A stretch of 40,746 nt of DNA from an uncultured Mitsuokella sp. (GTDB lineage Bacteria > Bacillota > Negativicutes > Selenomonadales > Selenomonadaceae). The DNA is taken from the NCBI GenBank assembly GCA_945873115.1, contig CAMCBT010000013.1:1-40746 (forward strand), written 5' to 3'. Positions 31,028 through 40,684 of this stretch are shown in pieces. Numbering within the stretch: the stretch's first letter is position 1; every line of letters begins with the position of its first letter. The translations under genes were made by a program, and so were the position numbers. The notes beneath the pieces are model-generated. The model was not told the origin of the DNA and searched no databases. It saw nothing but the letters and a program-made list of their open reading frames with translations.

Positions 31028-31123
31028 GGCATGGCCGAAGGGCGGCTTTTTGCAACCGGTGCGGTATGGAGCCGCCTGCTTGCAGATGCGGCGCGGATGG
31101 GTAGGAGCAAGGAGGATTTTTTT

Positions 31124-33340
31124 ATGCAAATGGCATGGCGTCATCGGAAATGGATGGCAGGCGCGATGGGCGGCGTGGCGCTTTTGGCGTGGGCGGCGCA
31201 GGGCGAGGCGAAGGAGGAGGATCATGCGGCGGAGGCGAGCGCAGAGGCCGCACACATGGAAGCGGCGAAGGAGATCGATCCGCACGATCTCGGCGAGACC
31301 GTCGTGACGGCGACGCGCGTCGAAGAGCCCCTTGCCAAAGTGCCGGCGAGCGTCACCGTCATCACGGCGAAGGAGATGGAAAAGCGCCAGGCGTTTTCCC
31401 TGCGGGAGGCACTCGCAAGGGAGGCGGGGGTGTACGTATCCCCGACGGCGGAGACGAAGGACGGGCTGACGCTGCGCGGCTTTTCCGGCAAGGATGTCCT
31501 CGTGCTGTACAACGGGCAGCAGCTCAACACGGCCTTTGACAGCAGTGTGAACTGGGATACGATCCCCATGAGCGAGATCGAGCGTGTCGAGATCGTGCGC
31601 GGCGCAGGCTCCTCTCTTTACGGCGGTCATGCCGTCGCAGGAGTCATCAACATCGTCACGAAGGCGCAGGCAAAGGATGGGGCCCTGCACGGACGCGCGG
31701 AGACGAAGTTCGGGACGAACCAGACGTGGCAGAGAAGCCTTTCCGTCACGGGCGGGGAAGGGGCATTTTCCTTCCGCCTCGGCTATGACGCGCGCTCGAG
31801 CGATGGCTATGCGGGCTATTTCTCGCGCGGCACGGAGGCAAAGTCCGGCAAGGTCAGCGCCTATGGCGATCTGCGGCGCAGCGCCGATGGGCGCTACATC
31901 ATCGGCAGCCGCGGGGCGAAGAAGAAGGAGAGCGAGAACGTCACGCTATCGCTTCGCTACGACATTTCGGACGCACGCTTCCTCGAATATGCGTATCTGC
32001 ACAGTGACTACAAGTACAACTATCATGATCCGTTTACGTATCTCGTCGATGCTGCGGGACATCCGACGTTCAGCGGGATCGTCGATGCGGATGGGACGCT
32101 GGTGCGCGCACGGTATTCCGACTATCTTGGCTACTATGGCGAGCGCGGGCAGGATCTGCACCGGCTTCGTTATGAGGATGCGAAAAACAGGTTTAAGCTG
32201 AGCGCGGGCTACAGCGATGTCTACAAGGAAGGGTATACGTCCATTCCGACCTCGGCGGGCAGCATCGACTACCAGGGGCCTGGCGCGCGGGCGAGCTATC
32301 CGAGCAAGAATTACAATGTTGATGTGCAAAAGGTTTGGCCGATCGGCGCACACACGCTGCTGCTGGGCGGCGCGTGGTCAAAAGACGAGATGGAATATAC
32401 GAATCAGAATCTCGCTTCGTGGACTGATTTTTCCTCCGTGGTGGGAAGCCCCACGATGGAGAGCGGCGGCTCGATCGTTTCTTCGGCGCTTTTCTTGCAG
32501 GATACGTATGCTTTCGCGCCGAAGTGGGAGCTTGGCCTTGGGATTCGTTACGACAGATTCGATAAGAAGGATGGCTATTCCGTCGCAGGCGGGGTGCGCC
32601 GTGACTATGCGGACAAGCGCTTCACGTCGTACAGCCCGAAACTTTCCCTCAGCTATGCGCCGAAGAAGAACGCGCTCGTGTTCCTGAGCTATGGCAAGTC
32701 CTTCAACCCGCCCTCAATCTACAAGCTCTTCCGCCGGGCAGGCGATACGATGAGTTCCGTGCAGGCAAATCCGAATCTCACGCCTGAGACGGCGAAAACG
32801 TATGAGATCGGCTACAAGGACAAGGTAAGCGGGCGCTTTTCCTACAGCGCGACGCTCTTTCAGATCGATAGCGATGATACGATCGCGCTTGCGACGCAGG
32901 GCGGCGTAAAGGCTTACTACAATATGAATCGCGGGCGGACGAAGGGCGCGGAGATCGCGATGAAGTACGATTTTTCCCATGACTGGCACACGTATCTCAA
33001 CTACACATACGAGACGGGCACGCTGACCTCCGGCGGCGTGACGCGTGACAATTATGACATCCCGCGCCATATGGTGCATACAGGGATCGAGTGGAGGAAG
33101 GGGCGCTGGGATGTGGTGCTCGACGGGCAGTATGTGAGCGCGCGCCAGAGCGCAGACGTCGTCACGGGCGAATACGGCTCCGAGGATGCGTTCTTTACGG
33201 CAAATTTCGCGCTCAATTATGCCATCGAGCAAAATTTCAAGGCACAGCTTGCCGTAAGCAATCTGTTTGATCGGACGTTTTATGCAGGGGAGGCAGCGAG
33301 CGGGCGCACCGTGACCTTTGGCCTCTCGCTGGACTTTTGA
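31124..33340 (+). CDS. btuB: TonB-dependent outer-membrane receptor, B12-regulated (BtuB-like)
   Basis: The 738-residue receptor has a signal peptide (1-30, ending AAQGEA), a TonB-box-like ETVVTATRVEEP, a plug domain (about 50-160; SVTVITAKEMEK, LTLRGFSGKDVLVLYNGQQL, ERVEIVRGAGSSLYG, AVAGVINIVTK) and a 22-strand-type barrel ending in Phe (GLSLDF). Cobalamin-riboswitch control makes corrinoid uptake the likely role. I choose ATG 31124 because AAGGAGG lies eight bases upstream and the signal peptide follows directly; the frame is open further upstream without a ribosome binding site. Codon use (many GCG, CGC, ATC) differs from the flanking genes, suggesting transfer. A PepSY membrane protein follows immediately. 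Confidence 0.92.
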   Translation: MQMAWRHRKWMAGAMGGVALLAWAAQGEAKEEDHAAEASAEAAHMEAAKEIDPHDLGETVVTATRVEEPLAKVPASVTVITAKEMEKRQAFSLREALAREAGVYVSPTAETKDGLTLRGFSGKDVLVLYNGQQLNTAFDSSVNWDTIPMSEIERVEIVRGAGSSLYGGHAVAGVINIVTKAQAKDGALHGRAETKFGTNQTWQRSLSVTGGEGAFSFRLGYDARSSDGYAGYFSRGTEAKSGKVSAYGDLRRSADGRYIIGSRGAKKKESENVTLSLRYDISDARFLEYAYLHSDYKYNYHDPFTYLVDAAGHPTFSGIVDADGTLVRARYSDYLGYYGERGQDLHRLRYEDAKNRFKLSAGYSDVYKEGYTSIPTSAGSIDYQGPGARASYPSKNYNVDVQKVWPIGAHTLLLGGAWSKDEMEYTNQNLASWTDFSSVVGSPTMESGGSIVSSALFLQDTYAFAPKWELGLGIRYDRFDKKDGYSVAGGVRRDYADKRFTSYSPKLSLSYAPKKNALVFLSYGKSFNPPSIYKLFRRAGDTMSSVQANPNLTPETAKTYEIGYKDKVSGRFSYSATLFQIDSDDTIALATQGGVKAYYNMNRGRTKGAEIAMKYDFSHDWHTYLNYTYETGTLTSGGVTRDNYDIPRHMVHTGIEWRKGRWDVVLDGQYVSARQSADVVTGEYGSEDAFFTANFALNYAIEQNFKAQLAVSNLFDRTFYAGEAASGRTVTFGLSLDF

Positions 33341-33348
33341 GGGGCGGT

Positions 33349-34584
33349 GTGCGCCTGCTCTTCCGCTTTCATCAGGTGGCAGGGCTGTTTTCGGCGCTCT
33401 TTATTTTCCTCTTTCTCGTGACGGCGGCCGTGCTGCTCTTTCGCGAGGAGATCACGTGGCTTGACACGGACGAGGGTGCGCCGATGGCGCGCGAGACGCT
33501 TCTTCTGGATCTCGATCGGGCGATCGGCGCGGCAGAGGAGGAGGGGCGGCGCGTCACGTATGTGCGCGTGGAGGAACGATACGGCAGGCTCCGCCTGGAG
33601 GCGAAAGAAACGCGAAACGGACATGGCGCACCAAAGCTCCTCTGGCTGGGCGGCGAGGAGCGGCTGGCGCACGCGGAGGGGCGGGGCAGCCCGTGGGTGC
33701 GGGACGCGATGCGCGTGTTGCATCTCCTTCACACGCAGCTCGCGCTCGGAAGGAATGTGGGGAGAGATCTCGCGCTCTTTGCCTGCGTCCTTTGCGTGCT
33801 TCTCGTCCTGTCAGGCTGGGCACTCTATCCCGCCTTCCAACAGCGGCTCTCCTTCGGCGCGGTGCGCCATGCGCCGCGGCGCCTCTTCTATGCCGATCTG
33901 CATCGAAAGCTTGGCGCGATCACGGGCATGTGGCTCTTTCTCCTCGCCCTCAGCGCCGTGATGATCCTCCTCTATGGCGAGGAAAAGAGCGCGTATACGC
34001 AACGCGCATGGCAGGAAGCGCGGGCGGAGATGGCGGACACGCCGCGAGGGCTCGCGCCCCATGCGGCGCTGGAGAGAGCCGAGGCAAGCGCGCCCGGTTG
34101 CCTCGTGGAGGCGATCTACCTGCCGCAGGAGGATGCGCCCTTCTACGCCTTCGAGATGCGTCCTGCTTCCACGCGCGAGGGCATCTATCGCCTCTCGGAC
34201 TGGGCCTTTCTCGCGAAGGACGGCAGCGACTGGCGCATCGATCCGCAGCCGCGCATGCTCACGTTTTTGAGCGAGGGGCTGAACCTGCATCTTCATAACC
34301 ATCCAGGGCTCCTCTACCGGATCTTGTGGCTTGCCTTTGCGCTCCTTGCCATCGCGATGGTCGTATGCGGCGTTTTGGCCTCGCTTGCGCGGTGCAGGCG
34401 GGATACAGGCGTGAGGGGGAGGCGCTTCCTTCCTGCGCGACCCACGCGAAGTGCCTGCCGCTATACCGCTGCGGCCGCACTCCTCACGCTTCTTGGCTTC
34501 GTCCTCCCCATGTGGGAAGGCTGGGCGCGATGGCTGGGCGCGGCGTTGCTCTTCCTCGTGCTCTTGCTCTCCGTTCGGAAGTGA
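33349..34584 (+). CDS. PepSY-associated transmembrane protein
   Basis: This 411-residue inner-membrane protein has four or five membrane segments (about 12-32, 145-166, 192-213, 322-345 and 375-407) and two periplasmic PepSY-like stretches. The family signature HQVAGLFSALFIFLFLVTA opens the protein, and the central FYADLHRKLGAITGMWLFLL is typical of PepSY_TM proteins. These often sit beside TonB receptors for siderophores, where some reduce iron; here the partner is B12-controlled. GTG 33349 follows GAGGGGC; a TTG four codons upstream overlaps the receptor stop and is also possible. The same codon bias as the receptor shows they moved together. Confidence 0.85.
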   Translation: MRLLFRFHQVAGLFSALFIFLFLVTAAVLLFREEITWLDTDEGAPMARETLLLDLDRAIGAAEEEGRRVTYVRVEERYGRLRLEAKETRNGHGAPKLLWLGGEERLAHAEGRGSPWVRDAMRVLHLLHTQLALGRNVGRDLALFACVLCVLLVLSGWALYPAFQQRLSFGAVRHAPRRLFYADLHRKLGAITGMWLFLLALSAVMILLYGEEKSAYTQRAWQEARAEMADTPRGLAPHAALERAEASAPGCLVEAIYLPQEDAPFYAFEMRPASTREGIYRLSDWAFLAKDGSDWRIDPQPRMLTFLSEGLNLHLHNHPGLLYRILWLAFALLAIAMVVCGVLASLARCRRDTGVRGRRFLPARPTRSACRYTAAAALLTLLGFVLPMWEGWARWLGAALLFLVLLLSVRK

Positions 34585-34748: not shown

Positions 34749-36551
34749 ATGAAAAAGATACATGGAGACCTGAATAATATCCGGGGGAGCGTCACAGCGG
34801 AGCTCATGGAGCTCTATGAGCTCACGGTGCCGCCGGGGCAGCTGGTGACCCAGGAGATAGCAGAGCGGATGCTCGCCCTCACGGAAAAGCTCGGCCGGGA
34901 GGTGGCGGTGTATCTCACCCGGAAGGGGATGGTGGAGGCGGTGTCCCTCGGCGATACCGCGACCGTTTCTTTGCCGGACTTTGCGGCTAGGTCCAGCCGC
35001 CGGCTCTCCGGCATCCGCTGCGTCCATACCCACCCGGGGGGCGACACGCATCTGTCGGGGCCGGATATCTCGTCGCTGCGGCAGATGCGCTTTGACTGCA
35101 TGACGGCCATCGGGCGCAGGAGCGCTTCGAACCGTACCTTTGCCACCATGGGCTTTTTCACAGGCGAGGAGGGAGAGGACGGCACGCCCCTCGTGTCCTC
35201 CTACGGGCCCCTGCCGCTGCACGTGCTGAATCGGGTGAACCTTGCCCGGCTCCTGGCGGAAATCAACCGGCGGCTGGGGGAGAACGTCACCCACCGGACG
35301 GAGGCGGGGAAGGAGCGGGCGGTGCTCGCTGGCATCGGCCTCGGCGGGGCACTGCCCCTCGAGGAGTCCATGGCGGAGCTTGCACGGCTCGCCGATACGG
35401 CGGGGGCGGAGGTGGTCGGCACCTTTGCCCAGAAGCGGGAGCGGCCGGACGGAGCGCTCTTCTTGGGAAAGGGGAAGGTGCGGGAGATTGCTCTCGCCGC
35501 CCAGAGCGTCGATGCCACGCTCCTCATCCTGGACGATGAGCTCAGCCCCTCCCAGCAGCGAAATCTCGAGCAGGAGACGGGCCTCCGGGTCATCGACCGG
35601 ACGGCGCTCATCCTCGATATCTTTGCCCAGCGGGCGGCGACCCGGGAGGGAAAGCTCCAGGTGGAGCTGGCCCAGCTCCAGTACCGGCTGCCGAGGCTCT
35701 CGGGGCAGGGCCTCGCCCTCTCCAGGCTTGGCGGCGGCATCGGCACGAGGGGGCCCGGCGAGACGAAGCTTGAGGTGGACAGGCGGCGCATCCACAGCCG
35801 CATCCACGATATCCAGCAGGAAATCGACAGGCTTCGGGCGACCCGCGGCCGCCATCGGGAAAGACGCCGGGAGGCCCGCATCCCTGTGGCGGCCCTCGTG
35901 GGCTATACGAATGCGGGAAAGTCCACGCTCCTGAACGCGCTGACAGAGGCGGAGGTCTTCGCCGAGGACAAGCTCTTTGCGACGCTCGACCCCACGACCC
36001 GGAGGCTGGAGCTAAAGGATGTGGGGGAGGTGCTGCTGACGGACACGGTGGGATTCATCCAGAAGCTTCCCCATACCCTGGTCTCTGCTTTCCGGGCGAC
36101 GCTGGAGGAGGTCTCGGAGGCGGATGTGCTCCTCCATGTGGTGGATGCCTCGAGCCCCAATGCGGAGGGCCAGATCGAGGCGGTGGTGAGTGTGCTGCGG
36201 GAGCTCGGTGCCCTCGATAAGCCCACGATTTTCGTCTTCAACAAGGCGGATGCCTATGCGGGTGGCGAGGCCGCGAAGGCCCAGCTCATGAATGGCCGGG
36301 AGGGCCTCTTCCTCTCGGCAAAGACGGGGGAGGGGCTAGGAGAGCTTCGGGATCGGCTCGCCGCCTTCTTCCGGGCTAGGGACGTACAGCGCACGCTCCT
36401 TATCCCCTTTGCCGATGGCAAAGCACTCTCGGTGCTCCATGAGGCGGCAGAGATCCTCTCCACCGGCTACGAGGAGACGGGCACCCGGGTGGAGGCCCGC
36501 ATCCCCCTCGCGGAGGAAGGGCGCTTTTCGGCCTACTATATCGATACCTGA
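34749..36551 (+). CDS. hflX: GTPase HflX with an N-terminal JAMM-like domain
   Basis: HflX is a ribosome-associated GTPase that rescues or splits stressed 70S ribosomes. The C-terminal 410 residues are standard: a Gly-rich HflX domain (ALFLGKGKVREI, LSPSQQRNLE, GGIGTRGPGETKLE), then G1 GYTNAGKST, G3 DTVGF and G4 NKAD. The extra N-terminal 180 residues carry E51, H93, H95, S103 and D106 in an HTHPGGDTHLSGPD stretch, an exact HxH-x7-SxxD JAMM metal-binding pattern. Long clostridial HflX proteins are known, but a possible metallo-isopeptidase role is not something I can confirm. GGAGAG precedes ATG 34749. Total length is 600 residues against about 430 for the E. coli form. Confidence 0.93.
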   Translation: MKKIHGDLNNIRGSVTAELMELYELTVPPGQLVTQEIAERMLALTEKLGREVAVYLTRKGMVEAVSLGDTATVSLPDFAARSSRRLSGIRCVHTHPGGDTHLSGPDISSLRQMRFDCMTAIGRRSASNRTFATMGFFTGEEGEDGTPLVSSYGPLPLHVLNRVNLARLLAEINRRLGENVTHRTEAGKERAVLAGIGLGGALPLEESMAELARLADTAGAEVVGTFAQKRERPDGALFLGKGKVREIALAAQSVDATLLILDDELSPSQQRNLEQETGLRVIDRTALILDIFAQRAATREGKLQVELAQLQYRLPRLSGQGLALSRLGGGIGTRGPGETKLEVDRRRIHSRIHDIQQEIDRLRATRGRHRERRREARIPVAALVGYTNAGKSTLLNALTEAEVFAEDKLFATLDPTTRRLELKDVGEVLLTDTVGFIQKLPHTLVSAFRATLEEVSEADVLLHVVDASSPNAEGQIEAVVSVLRELGALDKPTIFVFNKADAYAGGEAAKAQLMNGREGLFLSAKTGEGLGELRDRLAAFFRARDVQRTLLIPFADGKALSVLHEAAEILSTGYEETGTRVEARIPLAEEGRFSAYYIDT

Positions 36552-36576: not shown

Positions 36577-36604
36577 TTGCGAAATCCCTCGTTTATGGTA
36601 CAAT
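36577..36604 (+). promoter_or_regulatory. Promoter of the two-partner-secretion gene
   Basis: TTGCGA (36577-36582) and TACAAT (36599-36604) are 16 bp apart, 59 bp before the GTG start. Confidence 0.65.
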
Positions 36605-36662
36605 GGTAAAATGGTATCATAAATTTATAATGTTGTCAGAAAACAGAAAAAGAGGAGATTTT

Positions 36663-38270
36663 GTGGAGCAGAGGAATGTGCTTTTTTCAGGGGTGGCAGC
36701 CCTGGCAATGATTTCTTTCGGTGCCGGGAGCGCCAGCGCGGGGACGCTGGCAGAGTCCCAGGCACTCATCGACGGCTATATCAGCGAGGCGGACAAGGGC
36801 TATGGGCCCAGTATCCGTCGGGCTAACGAGGCGGATACGGCACCGGACCTCCACCTCCAGCGGTACAAGGACGGCCTCAATACGGTGCTCGACGATCATA
36901 ACCTGTCGCAGCTGGAGCAGGGCACTGTCCCGTCGCCCCAGCTGGAAAATCCGGAGCTTATGGCTCTGCCCGTGGGAAAGGTCACGGTCGAAAGCTCCCG
37001 CATGAAGGCCTCCTACGTGATGGATTACCTGGGCCTCAAGGAGGGGGCGCAGGTGGATCCGGAGGCCTTCCAGAAGGCCTTCTTCCGCTTCCATGGGGCC
37101 CATGATACGGTGCTTCACATCGCGCTTGCGGAGGGGGCGAAGGGGACGGCGGACTGGACCATCCGGTGCCTGGAGCCTCGGGACGTGACGGTGGGCGCTC
37201 TCATGGAGAACATGGGCAGCAAGTCCGTGGGCTTCTACCAGCACGGCTACGCAGTGCGCTTCAACGGCATCTCGGGCCGCTCGGACAACCTTCTCCTGAG
37301 CGGTCTTTTCTCCACAGGCTCTCGGAGCGGCCTCATCGACTACACCACGCCGGTGGGCCGCGCGGGCGATACGCTGAACCTGACCTATGGGGTGGCGTCT
37401 CTTAACTATACGGATGGGTTCTTCGAGCCCTTCCGTGTGACGGGCCACAGCCAGATGGCAAATGTGCTCTACTCCCACGCCCTCGATGTGAAGGAGTCGG
37501 GAAAGACCGCCCTGAATGTCTCCTATCGCTATTACAATGCAAAGCTCAGTACGGATGTGCCCAGCGAGATCCAGACCCTCTACGACTACGCGGAGGCGAA
37601 GCCGGATGGCAGCGGCCTCCAGGCCTACGCCCAGGCGGTGGCGCAGATCATCCAGTACAACTACCTCCCCTACGAGGCCAGGACCCATGTGGTGGATGTG
37701 GCCTACAACCGCTACACAAAGGGAGACAGCTACATGCTCTCCCAGAACTACGGCTACCGGCTGGGCTACGCCACGAAGGAGCTGGGGGGAAGTGCCCTCT
37801 TCGCCCAGAGGGATGACCGCAGCTTCGGCCTGGCCCACGCCGAGCTGCTCTACCGGAAGTACTACGCCCACGGGCAGAAAATACAGATGCTGGCCACGGG
37901 CCAGTGGGCCAGCACGGGGATGCTCTCCATGACCCAGCAGTTCTATCCCGGCGGCATCAATACGGTGCGGGGCTACAAGGAGAACCTGCTCTTCGGCGAC
38001 AGCGGGGCGGCCTTGCAGCTGGACTACATGGTGCCGCTGGACAGCAAGAAGCGATTCTTCGCGGATATCTTCCTGGATGGGGCCTTCGTCTCCGGCAAGG
38101 GCACGGCAGGTCAGGACAATACGCGCATCGCTAGCACCGGCTTCGGCCTCCGGGGGGCGCCGGCGGACAATGTGAATGTGAATCTCTTCCTGGGCTTCCC
38201 GCTTGTGCGGCATCTCGACGGCATCAAGCAGAATCCCCATATCAATTTTATGACAAGCTATATCTTCTAA
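36663..38270 (+). CDS. ShlB/FhaC-type outer-membrane translocator (TpsB-like)
   Basis: The 535-residue protein has a signal peptide (1-26, ending GSASA), one POTRA-like region (about 100-165; VTVESSRMKASYVMDYLGL) and a barrel domain. The translocator signature is QQFYPGGINTVRGYKENLLF near 440, including the conserved VRGY loop, and the protein ends in Phe (NFMTSYIF). TpsB proteins secrete large TpsA exoproteins. No TpsA gene lies beside it, since hflX is upstream and a repeat and TPR gene downstream, so it is an orphan or acts at a distance. GTG 36663 follows AGAGGAG by five bases. A hairpin after the stop (38280-38320) may terminate it. Confidence 0.82.
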   Translation: MEQRNVLFSGVAALAMISFGAGSASAGTLAESQALIDGYISEADKGYGPSIRRANEADTAPDLHLQRYKDGLNTVLDDHNLSQLEQGTVPSPQLENPELMALPVGKVTVESSRMKASYVMDYLGLKEGAQVDPEAFQKAFFRFHGAHDTVLHIALAEGAKGTADWTIRCLEPRDVTVGALMENMGSKSVGFYQHGYAVRFNGISGRSDNLLLSGLFSTGSRSGLIDYTTPVGRAGDTLNLTYGVASLNYTDGFFEPFRVTGHSQMANVLYSHALDVKESGKTALNVSYRYYNAKLSTDVPSEIQTLYDYAEAKPDGSGLQAYAQAVAQIIQYNYLPYEARTHVVDVAYNRYTKGDSYMLSQNYGYRLGYATKELGGSALFAQRDDRSFGLAHAELLYRKYYAHGQKIQMLATGQWASTGMLSMTQQFYPGGINTVRGYKENLLFGDSGAALQLDYMVPLDSKKRFFADIFLDGAFVSGKGTAGQDNTRIASTGFGLRGAPADNVNVNLFLGFPLVRHLDGIKQNPHINFMTSYIF

Positions 38271-39655: not shown

Positions 39656-40684
39656 ATGAAGAAAAGCGTACAAATCCTTGGGCTCCCTATCATAAGCATC
39701 ACAGAGGGCCGCGAACTCGGCATGAGCAAGACGCTCCTGATGGATGCGAAGCATGGCACGGTAGCTGCCATCACCATAGAGGATGCCGACTGGTACCGGG
39801 GGGTCAAGCTCATACCCTATGAGTCCGTCATCGCCATCGGCGACGATGCTGTCACGGTGACCAGCAGCGAGAACATCCTGACCCTCGACGATGCTGGCGA
39901 CTATGAGCAGCTCCTCGACGAGAACATCCGCATCATCGGCACGAAGGCCATCACGAAGTCCGGCACCATCCAGGGCAAGATTTCCGAGGTCTTCGTGGGG
40001 GACGACGGGAAAATCGAGAAGTGCGAGGTCACGGCACCGGACGGCACCACCACGGAGGTGGCCTGCGATCAGATTTCCATCTTCGGCAAGGAGGTCACCG
40101 TCATCGACCCCAGCGGGGAAAAAAAAACGACTCCCGTAACGCCTAGCGCAGAGCCTGCCGGTGTTGCCGCCCCGGCTCCGGAGCCCACGCCTCTGCCGGC
40201 AGTGGAGGTCCCGGCAGAGGCAGCACCGGCGCCCGAGATGCCCGAGGCTCCTGCGGCCCCCGCCGTAGAGGCCCCGGCACCGGAGCCTGTACCGGAAGCT
40301 CCCGCTGAGGAGCCCAAGGCGGAAGAGGCGAAGGCAGAGGAGCCCAAGGCCGAGGCACCGAAGGTAGAGGAGCCGAAGGCAGAGGAGGCCCCCAAGGCAG
40401 AGCCTGCCAAGAAAGAGGCCAAGGAGGAAAAGCCCAAGGAGACAAAGGCCCCCGCAAAGAAGGCGGACAAGAAGGACGAGGCCAAGGACGCCAAGAAGGC
40501 GGCCGATGACAAGGCCGCCGAGGAGCGCCATCGCCGCTTCCTCCTGGGCAAGAAGGCCGCCCGCACCATCAAGATGGACAACGGCATCGTCATCGTCGAG
40601 GCCGGCCAGGACATCACGGAGGAGGTCCTCCAGAAGGCAAAGCTCTCCAACAAGTTCATCGAGCTCTCCATGAACGTGCAGTAA
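39656..40684 (+). CDS. PRC-barrel protein with Glu/Lys/Pro/Ala-rich region
   Basis: The 342-residue protein starts with two PRC-barrel modules (about 3-75, GLPIISITEGRELG; about 90-155, ITKSGTIQGKISEVFVGDDG), a fold found in RNA-processing factors and photosynthetic reaction centres. A long region (about 165-285) of short repeats such as EEPKAEEAKAEEPKAEAPK and PAPE is probably disordered. The last 55 residues form a compact, conserved-looking end (RRFLLGKKAARTIKMDNGIV and onward). Such proteins may scaffold at the membrane or nucleoid; I cannot assign a role. GGGGGAATTTTC precedes ATG 39656. A copy of the 104-bp repeat begins 13 bases after its stop. Confidence 0.78.
   Translation: MKKSVQILGLPIISITEGRELGMSKTLLMDAKHGTVAAITIEDADWYRGVKLIPYESVIAIGDDAVTVTSSENILTLDDAGDYEQLLDENIRIIGTKAITKSGTIQGKISEVFVGDDGKIEKCEVTAPDGTTTEVACDQISIFGKEVTVIDPSGEKKTTPVTPSAEPAGVAAPAPEPTPLPAVEVPAEAAPAPEMPEAPAAPAVEAPAPEPVPEAPAEEPKAEEAKAEEPKAEAPKVEEPKAEEAPKAEPAKKEAKEEKPKETKAPAKKADKKDEAKDAKKAADDKAAEERHRRFLLGKKAARTIKMDNGIVIVEAGQDITEEVLQKAKLSNKFIELSMNVQ

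Follow-up and report, generated by a model that had tools for sequence, protein, structure and literature searches.

The window, the whole 40,746-nucleotide stretch of DNA analysed here, comes from an uncultured Mitsuokella sp. and carries an hflX gene on the plus strand. The gene starts with ATG preceded by AGGAG, and its open frame of 605 aa extends just five codons upstream of this ATG. Directly upstream, a gene for a TonB-dependent receptor overlaps that of a PepSY_TM protein (31031-34584), and the two probably work together in taking up iron or another metal. Right after hflX, at the position held by ynbB in other Negativicutes, lies a gene for a ShlB/FhaC-type (Omp85 superfamily) outer-membrane transporter (36603-38270), and 39656-40684 encodes a PRC-barrel protein whose long repeat region is rich in Ala, Pro, Glu and Lys. 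The features of hflX are as follows.

34749-36551, plus strand: hflX, 600 aa, with N-terminal JAB/MPN+ domain (open reading frame; Pfam, NCBIfam and PDB sequence matches)
34749-35243, plus strand: JAB/MPN+ (JAMM) domain, residues 1-165 (AlphaFold model, PDB comparison, hhalign against RadC)
34899-34901, plus strand: E51, the JAMM glutamate, predicted acid-base catalyst (conservation; opposite an invariant RadC Glu)
35025-35066, plus strand: H93-T-H95-x7-S103-x2-D106, predicted to supply the metal ligands and the oxyanion serine (conservation; motif definition in PMC300881)
35025-35027, plus strand: H93 of the JAMM site
35031-35033, plus strand: H95 of the JAMM site, with T94 between H93 and H95
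35055-35057, plus strand: S103 of the JAMM site
35064-35066, plus strand: D106 of the JAMM site
35283-35312, plus strand: low-confidence linker between the JAB domain and HflX, residues 179-188 (pLDDT of the full-length model)
35361-35627, plus strand: HflX N-terminal domain (PF13167, GTP-bdg_N), residues 205-293 (Pfam)
35631-35867, plus strand: HflX middle/helical region (PF16360, GTP-bdg_M), residues 295-373 (Pfam)
35889-36245, plus strand: GTPase domain (MMR_HSR1), residues 381-499 (Pfam)

The C-terminal 400 amino acids are a true, full HflX. The window protein scored 483 bits against TIGR03156 (the HflX equivalog), well above the curated cut-off of 216.75, and Pfam and NCBIfam identified HflX from residue ∼190 onward. 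The PDB sequence matches were likewise HflX structures, starting at residue ∼162 or later. By homology, the window protein would be expected to bind and split ribosomes. The HflX proteins of E. coli, Listeria (HflX/HflXr) and Mycobacterium are alike over these 400 residues but have no counterpart of the JAB domain of ∼185 aa; in Mycobacterium the extension measures 39-58 aa (PMC12493154). Across 80 named loci, a ynbB-like gene was found after hflX in 62, lexA recurred near hflX, and a spoVK-like gene recurred in the Sporomusa group. We take these recurrent neighbours to be ynbB, lexA and spoVK-like genes, and the B. subtilis locus to be ynbA-ynbB; a locus of the ynbA-ynbB type indicates that the domain-bearing HflX is the housekeeping HflX, not an accessory paralogue. 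The hflX neighbours in the window differ from those of the ynbB-type loci.

An earlier note on this DNA had read a full JAMM metal site, E51 plus H93-T-H95-x7-S103-x2-D106, in the N-terminal extension. The residues were found exactly as stated, and they match the published JAMM signature, EXnHS/THX7SXXD (Ambroggio et al., PMC300881). In JAMM proteins the His and Asp residues bind zinc, the Glu hydrogen-bonds the metal-bound water, and the second Ser of the motif is predicted to stabilise the tetrahedral intermediate (PMC300881). The pattern H[ST]Hx7SxxD occurred once in the six frames of the 40.7-kb window, in the hflX extension, and was recovered in 11 of 200,000 shuffles of residues 1-188. 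Conservation is a stronger test of the motif than shuffling. The extension region was found in 39 of 60 relatives, and E51, H93, H95, P96, S103 and D106 were invariant in all 30 aligned homologues, which are 37-87% identical to the window protein. In Bacillota, E51, H93, T/S94, H95, S103 and D106 were present in 178 of 178 intact loci (196 loci minus RadC and degenerate ones, some of them from the same species), and E51 was conserved in 73/73 complete rows of the active-type set. The proposal that the five site residues would not vary freely among homologues was therefore borne out for the intact forms. A scan of genome contigs found 432 relatives. The 80 of them listed were mainly from the Negativicutes Selenomonas, Mitsuokella, Anaerovibrio, Schwartzia, Pelosinus, Sporomusa, Propionispira and Phascolarctobacterium, and the closest relative among the matches listed was an uncultured Mitsuokella, at 87%.

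Structure prediction agreed with the JAMM-like fold that had been proposed for the extension. The AlphaFold2 model built from the 30-row alignment (pLDDT 87.7, pTM 0.85) showed two helices, two strands and a low-confidence loop (residues 70-80), followed by a strand that ends in the HxH, by a helix from S103/D106 onwards, and finally by three strands and C-terminal helices. On its own, Foldseek ranked CSN5-type, BubCD and RadC chains first and gave no match at E ≤0.001, so that VIA realignment to the PDB was required. The top row was then RadC (2qlc; Z of 7.2 over 103 residues, 3.8 Å), with Rpn11 (7.0), PfJAMM1 (7.0), CSN5 (6.7) and AF2198 (6.4) close behind, and the PDB entries were matched over residues ∼30-164, the JAB-fold core of the extension. 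The best 39 PDB rows were all JAB/MPN; most of the best 50 were RadC, Rpn11, PfJAMM1, CSN5, AMSH, BRCC36 and their kin, and the few non-family rows after row 39 were deaminase-fold proteins. All Z values were below 8, a range that common folds alone can also produce and that would be weak by itself, but the evidence is not weak when a single superfamily fills the PDB list and the active site matches as well. The fold and the E-xn-H[S/T]H-x7-S-xx-D site are common to the extension and to Rpn11, CSN5, AMSH, BRCC36, PfJAMM1 and bacterial BubCD, at about 6-21% identity to the JAMM/MPN+ isopeptidases in structural alignments.

The earlier suggestion of a RadC-like module also held, in that RadC was the closest bacterial relative found, both by profile and by fold. 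Profile-profile comparison (hhalign) with RadC (PF04002, a JAB domain) gave a probability of 96.2 and an E-value of 2.4e-9, and each of E51, H93, H95, S103 and D106 was aligned to a RadC column that is invariant. By the RadC family's own cut-off, however, the extension is not RadC: the window protein did not reach the curated threshold of PF04002 and gave no match at E ≤1. RadC is moreover a separate protein, unlike the HflX-fused domain, and the genome of the window has its own RadC of 236 aa. Against Prok-JAB (PF14464) the window protein scored 16.4 bits, under the cut-off of 25, and no Pfam or NCBIfam model reached its cut-off on the extension. Among 30 single members, 28 matched Prok-JAB and 25 matched RadC, all weakly (best RadC match, E 0.00021). 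Because single-sequence family scores are weak, the extension stays unannotated, and annotation pipelines built on the Pfam and NCBIfam cut-offs miss the domain. By its sequence and its model, the extension has both the JAMM motif and the JAB/MPN fold. It is almost certainly a JAMM-fold domain with a complete site, and would belong to the JAB/MPN+ (JAMM) metal-hydrolase type as a subfamily so far without a name. The term JAMM protease for the HflX extension is a prediction from motif and model.

HflX was detected above its cut-off in 305 of 398 Bacillota genomes, and the domain was present in 73 of these 305, in HflX-length frames with the exception of a single 324-aa frame (G357). The motif was intact in about 60 of these 73 carriers, 59 of which were checked residue by residue. 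The JAB model gave 78 matches in the 398 genomes; five were RadC proteins, the sole matches other than the fused domains, and the domain was not seen apart from HflX. In the Negativicutes, the class of the window, HflX was found in 170 of 300 genomes and the domain in 164 of the 170, counts obtained by comparing two genome lists by hand. One of the six exceptions was cut by a contig end (G614) and five were domain-free. The HflX of these five (G519, G670, G056, G057 and G486; L246-L250) begins at about residue 166-184, at the domain boundary, with no JAB elsewhere in the genome, which looks like clean domain loss. For two of the five, the other members of their genus do carry the domain. JAB matches with no HflX at the strict threshold were found in three genomes of the class, one cut by a contig end (G450), one with a broken gene (G516) and one with a RadC-like frame of 204 aa (G544). 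HflX was absent from 130 of the 300 class genomes; genomes without it, such as G007, G009, G010 and G039, were numerous in both the family and the class of the window. The long HflX frames of f70 and G424 contained no recognisable JAB domain. On a tree of the HflX core, built to weigh one origin of the fusion against several, at least 14 label changes were needed, only two of which were forced by well-supported (starred) branches. The domain appears to be permanently fused to a housekeeping HflX.

In some carriers the domain was kept and its site was lost. This was the case in families f60 and f112 and in genome G206 (f103), the last recognised by eye, which have for example LSGLRCIYLTFNS instead of LSGIRCVHTHPGG; the His residues were likewise lost in family f104, where the domain is still fused to HflX. 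Bacillota HflX with a degenerate JAB and no His ligands were seen at loci L168-L170, L173, L174, L176 and L200, and at L175 and L177-L182. Comparing 74 active-type rows with seven degenerate rows, E51, H93, T94, H95, P96, S103 and D106 were at least 97% conserved in the former and lost in the latter (H93 and S103 kept in 0/7; E51, H95 and D106 kept in 1/7 each), in an alignment that is uncertain near the lost site, where the region also shortens. One active-type row seemingly without the site was a truncated stretch. R58, G60, G68, R90, D116 and E189, by comparison, were conserved at 86-99% in the active-type rows and in 7/7 degenerate rows. Such joint loss is expected of a metal site if its residues function together. 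A second function is predicted by the fold having survived site loss, and the lineages whose domain has no metal site imply that catalysis is not the sole role everywhere; together with the clean losses, they indicate that catalysis is dispensable in places. In the degenerate lineages the domain is presumably a pseudoenzyme, retaining only a binding or steric role.

On balance we lean towards a metal-dependent hydrolase of the JAMM type on a flexible tether, which HflX brings to the 50S subunit and which also has a non-catalytic role. HflX-GTP would split 70S ribosomes that are stalled or idle, binding them on the A/P-site side of the 50S, while the N-terminal JAMM domain on its short flexible linker would be positioned at the intersubunit face. 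A single metal ion, Zn by analogy, would have H93, H95 and D106 as its ligands; E51 would be the base and S103 the oxyanion helper, and the domain would cleave an amide or isopeptide bond of a protein bound at that face. A nascent chain, a ribosomal protein tail and a hibernation factor are candidate substrates, with no preference among the three. In some lineages the domain would have turned into a pseudoenzyme. In the full-length model (pTM 0.66), the mean pLDDT was 56 for the block of residues 181-190 and fell below 50 for residues 181-185; the low-confidence linker at ∼179-188 suggests that the domain can probably move against the rest of HflX. In mycobacterial HflX, a short N-terminal extension touches both uL16 and H38 and extends to the H69-71 junction; when it was removed, splitting had a different outcome (PMC12493154). 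If this geometry holds by extrapolation, the JAMM domain would lie on the 50S intersubunit face near the A/P sites. Where a lineage has the full site, catalytic activity of the domain is quite probable; for a substrate on or next to the ribosome we put the chances at even. Replacement of the Prp protease in bL27 maturation was considered as a separate candidate role, and was rejected since Prp was present in 15/16 genomes with and without the domain, with no complementarity.

A rather unlikely alternative is that the domain serves mainly to bind the ribosome or to act sterically, as an aid to splitting or anti-association, with a structural or vestigial metal site. At least two lineages or sets (f60, f112 and f103; f104) keep the fused domain after site loss, as this would predict. 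MPN- proteins demonstrate that the fold can act purely as a scaffold, so that MPN- subunits offer a parallel. The mycobacterial extension, too, works on rRNA helices without catalysis (PMC12493154). However, E51 and S103 vary no more than the His and Asp residues across very diverged sequences, although neither is a metal ligand in JAMM proteins, and a purely structural role would leave this unexplained.

Less probable still is an active hydrolase for which HflX is a mere carrier or a GTP-controlled regulator, and which acts on a non-ribosomal substrate, for instance a small molecule, a peptide, or a protein of the ubiquitin-like or sulphur-carrier kind. Ubiquitin-like proteins are the substrates of most JAMM enzymes whose function is known, and the linker in the full-length model is flexible, both consistent with such an arrangement. 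The JAMM/MPN+ isopeptidases act on ubiquitin-like conjugates, whereas the partner of the extension is a ribosome-splitting GTPase. The recurrent hflX neighbours gave no hint of a substrate, ynbB, lexA and the spoVK-like gene being the only recognisable ones, and included no ubiquitin-like gene. Furthermore, the domain was not seen as a separate protein and, in the class, is absent where HflX is absent, which ties its function to that of HflX. A chance motif in an unrelated fold, which the weak single-sequence Pfam match (E 0.008, under the cut-off) might suggest, was ruled out jointly by the conservation in 178 loci, the PDB fold comparison and the RadC profile comparison, which agree with each other, and its probability is accordingly very small.

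The tethered hydrolase thus remains our preferred reading of the domain. The stress factor HflX is regarded as a GTPase that only splits ribosomes, and no paper linking HflX with JAMM or JAB was found among open-licence papers. It is conceivable, at somewhat less than even chances, that in Negativicutes and many other Bacillota the ribosome-splitting GTPase is also a JAMM protease, with a nascent chain or a protein bound to the ribosome as its target in rescue or exit from hibernation, and that several lineages later turned the protease into a pseudoenzyme. If so, proteolysis would be a step not described before in bacterial ribosome rescue, and JAMM enzymes would acquire a ribosomal role. Since HflX proteins with an active domain, a degenerate one or none all occur naturally, the question is open to direct testing. 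If an intact JAMM site is present in about a fifth of Bacillota HflX, proteolysis may be part of ribosome rescue in these bacteria.
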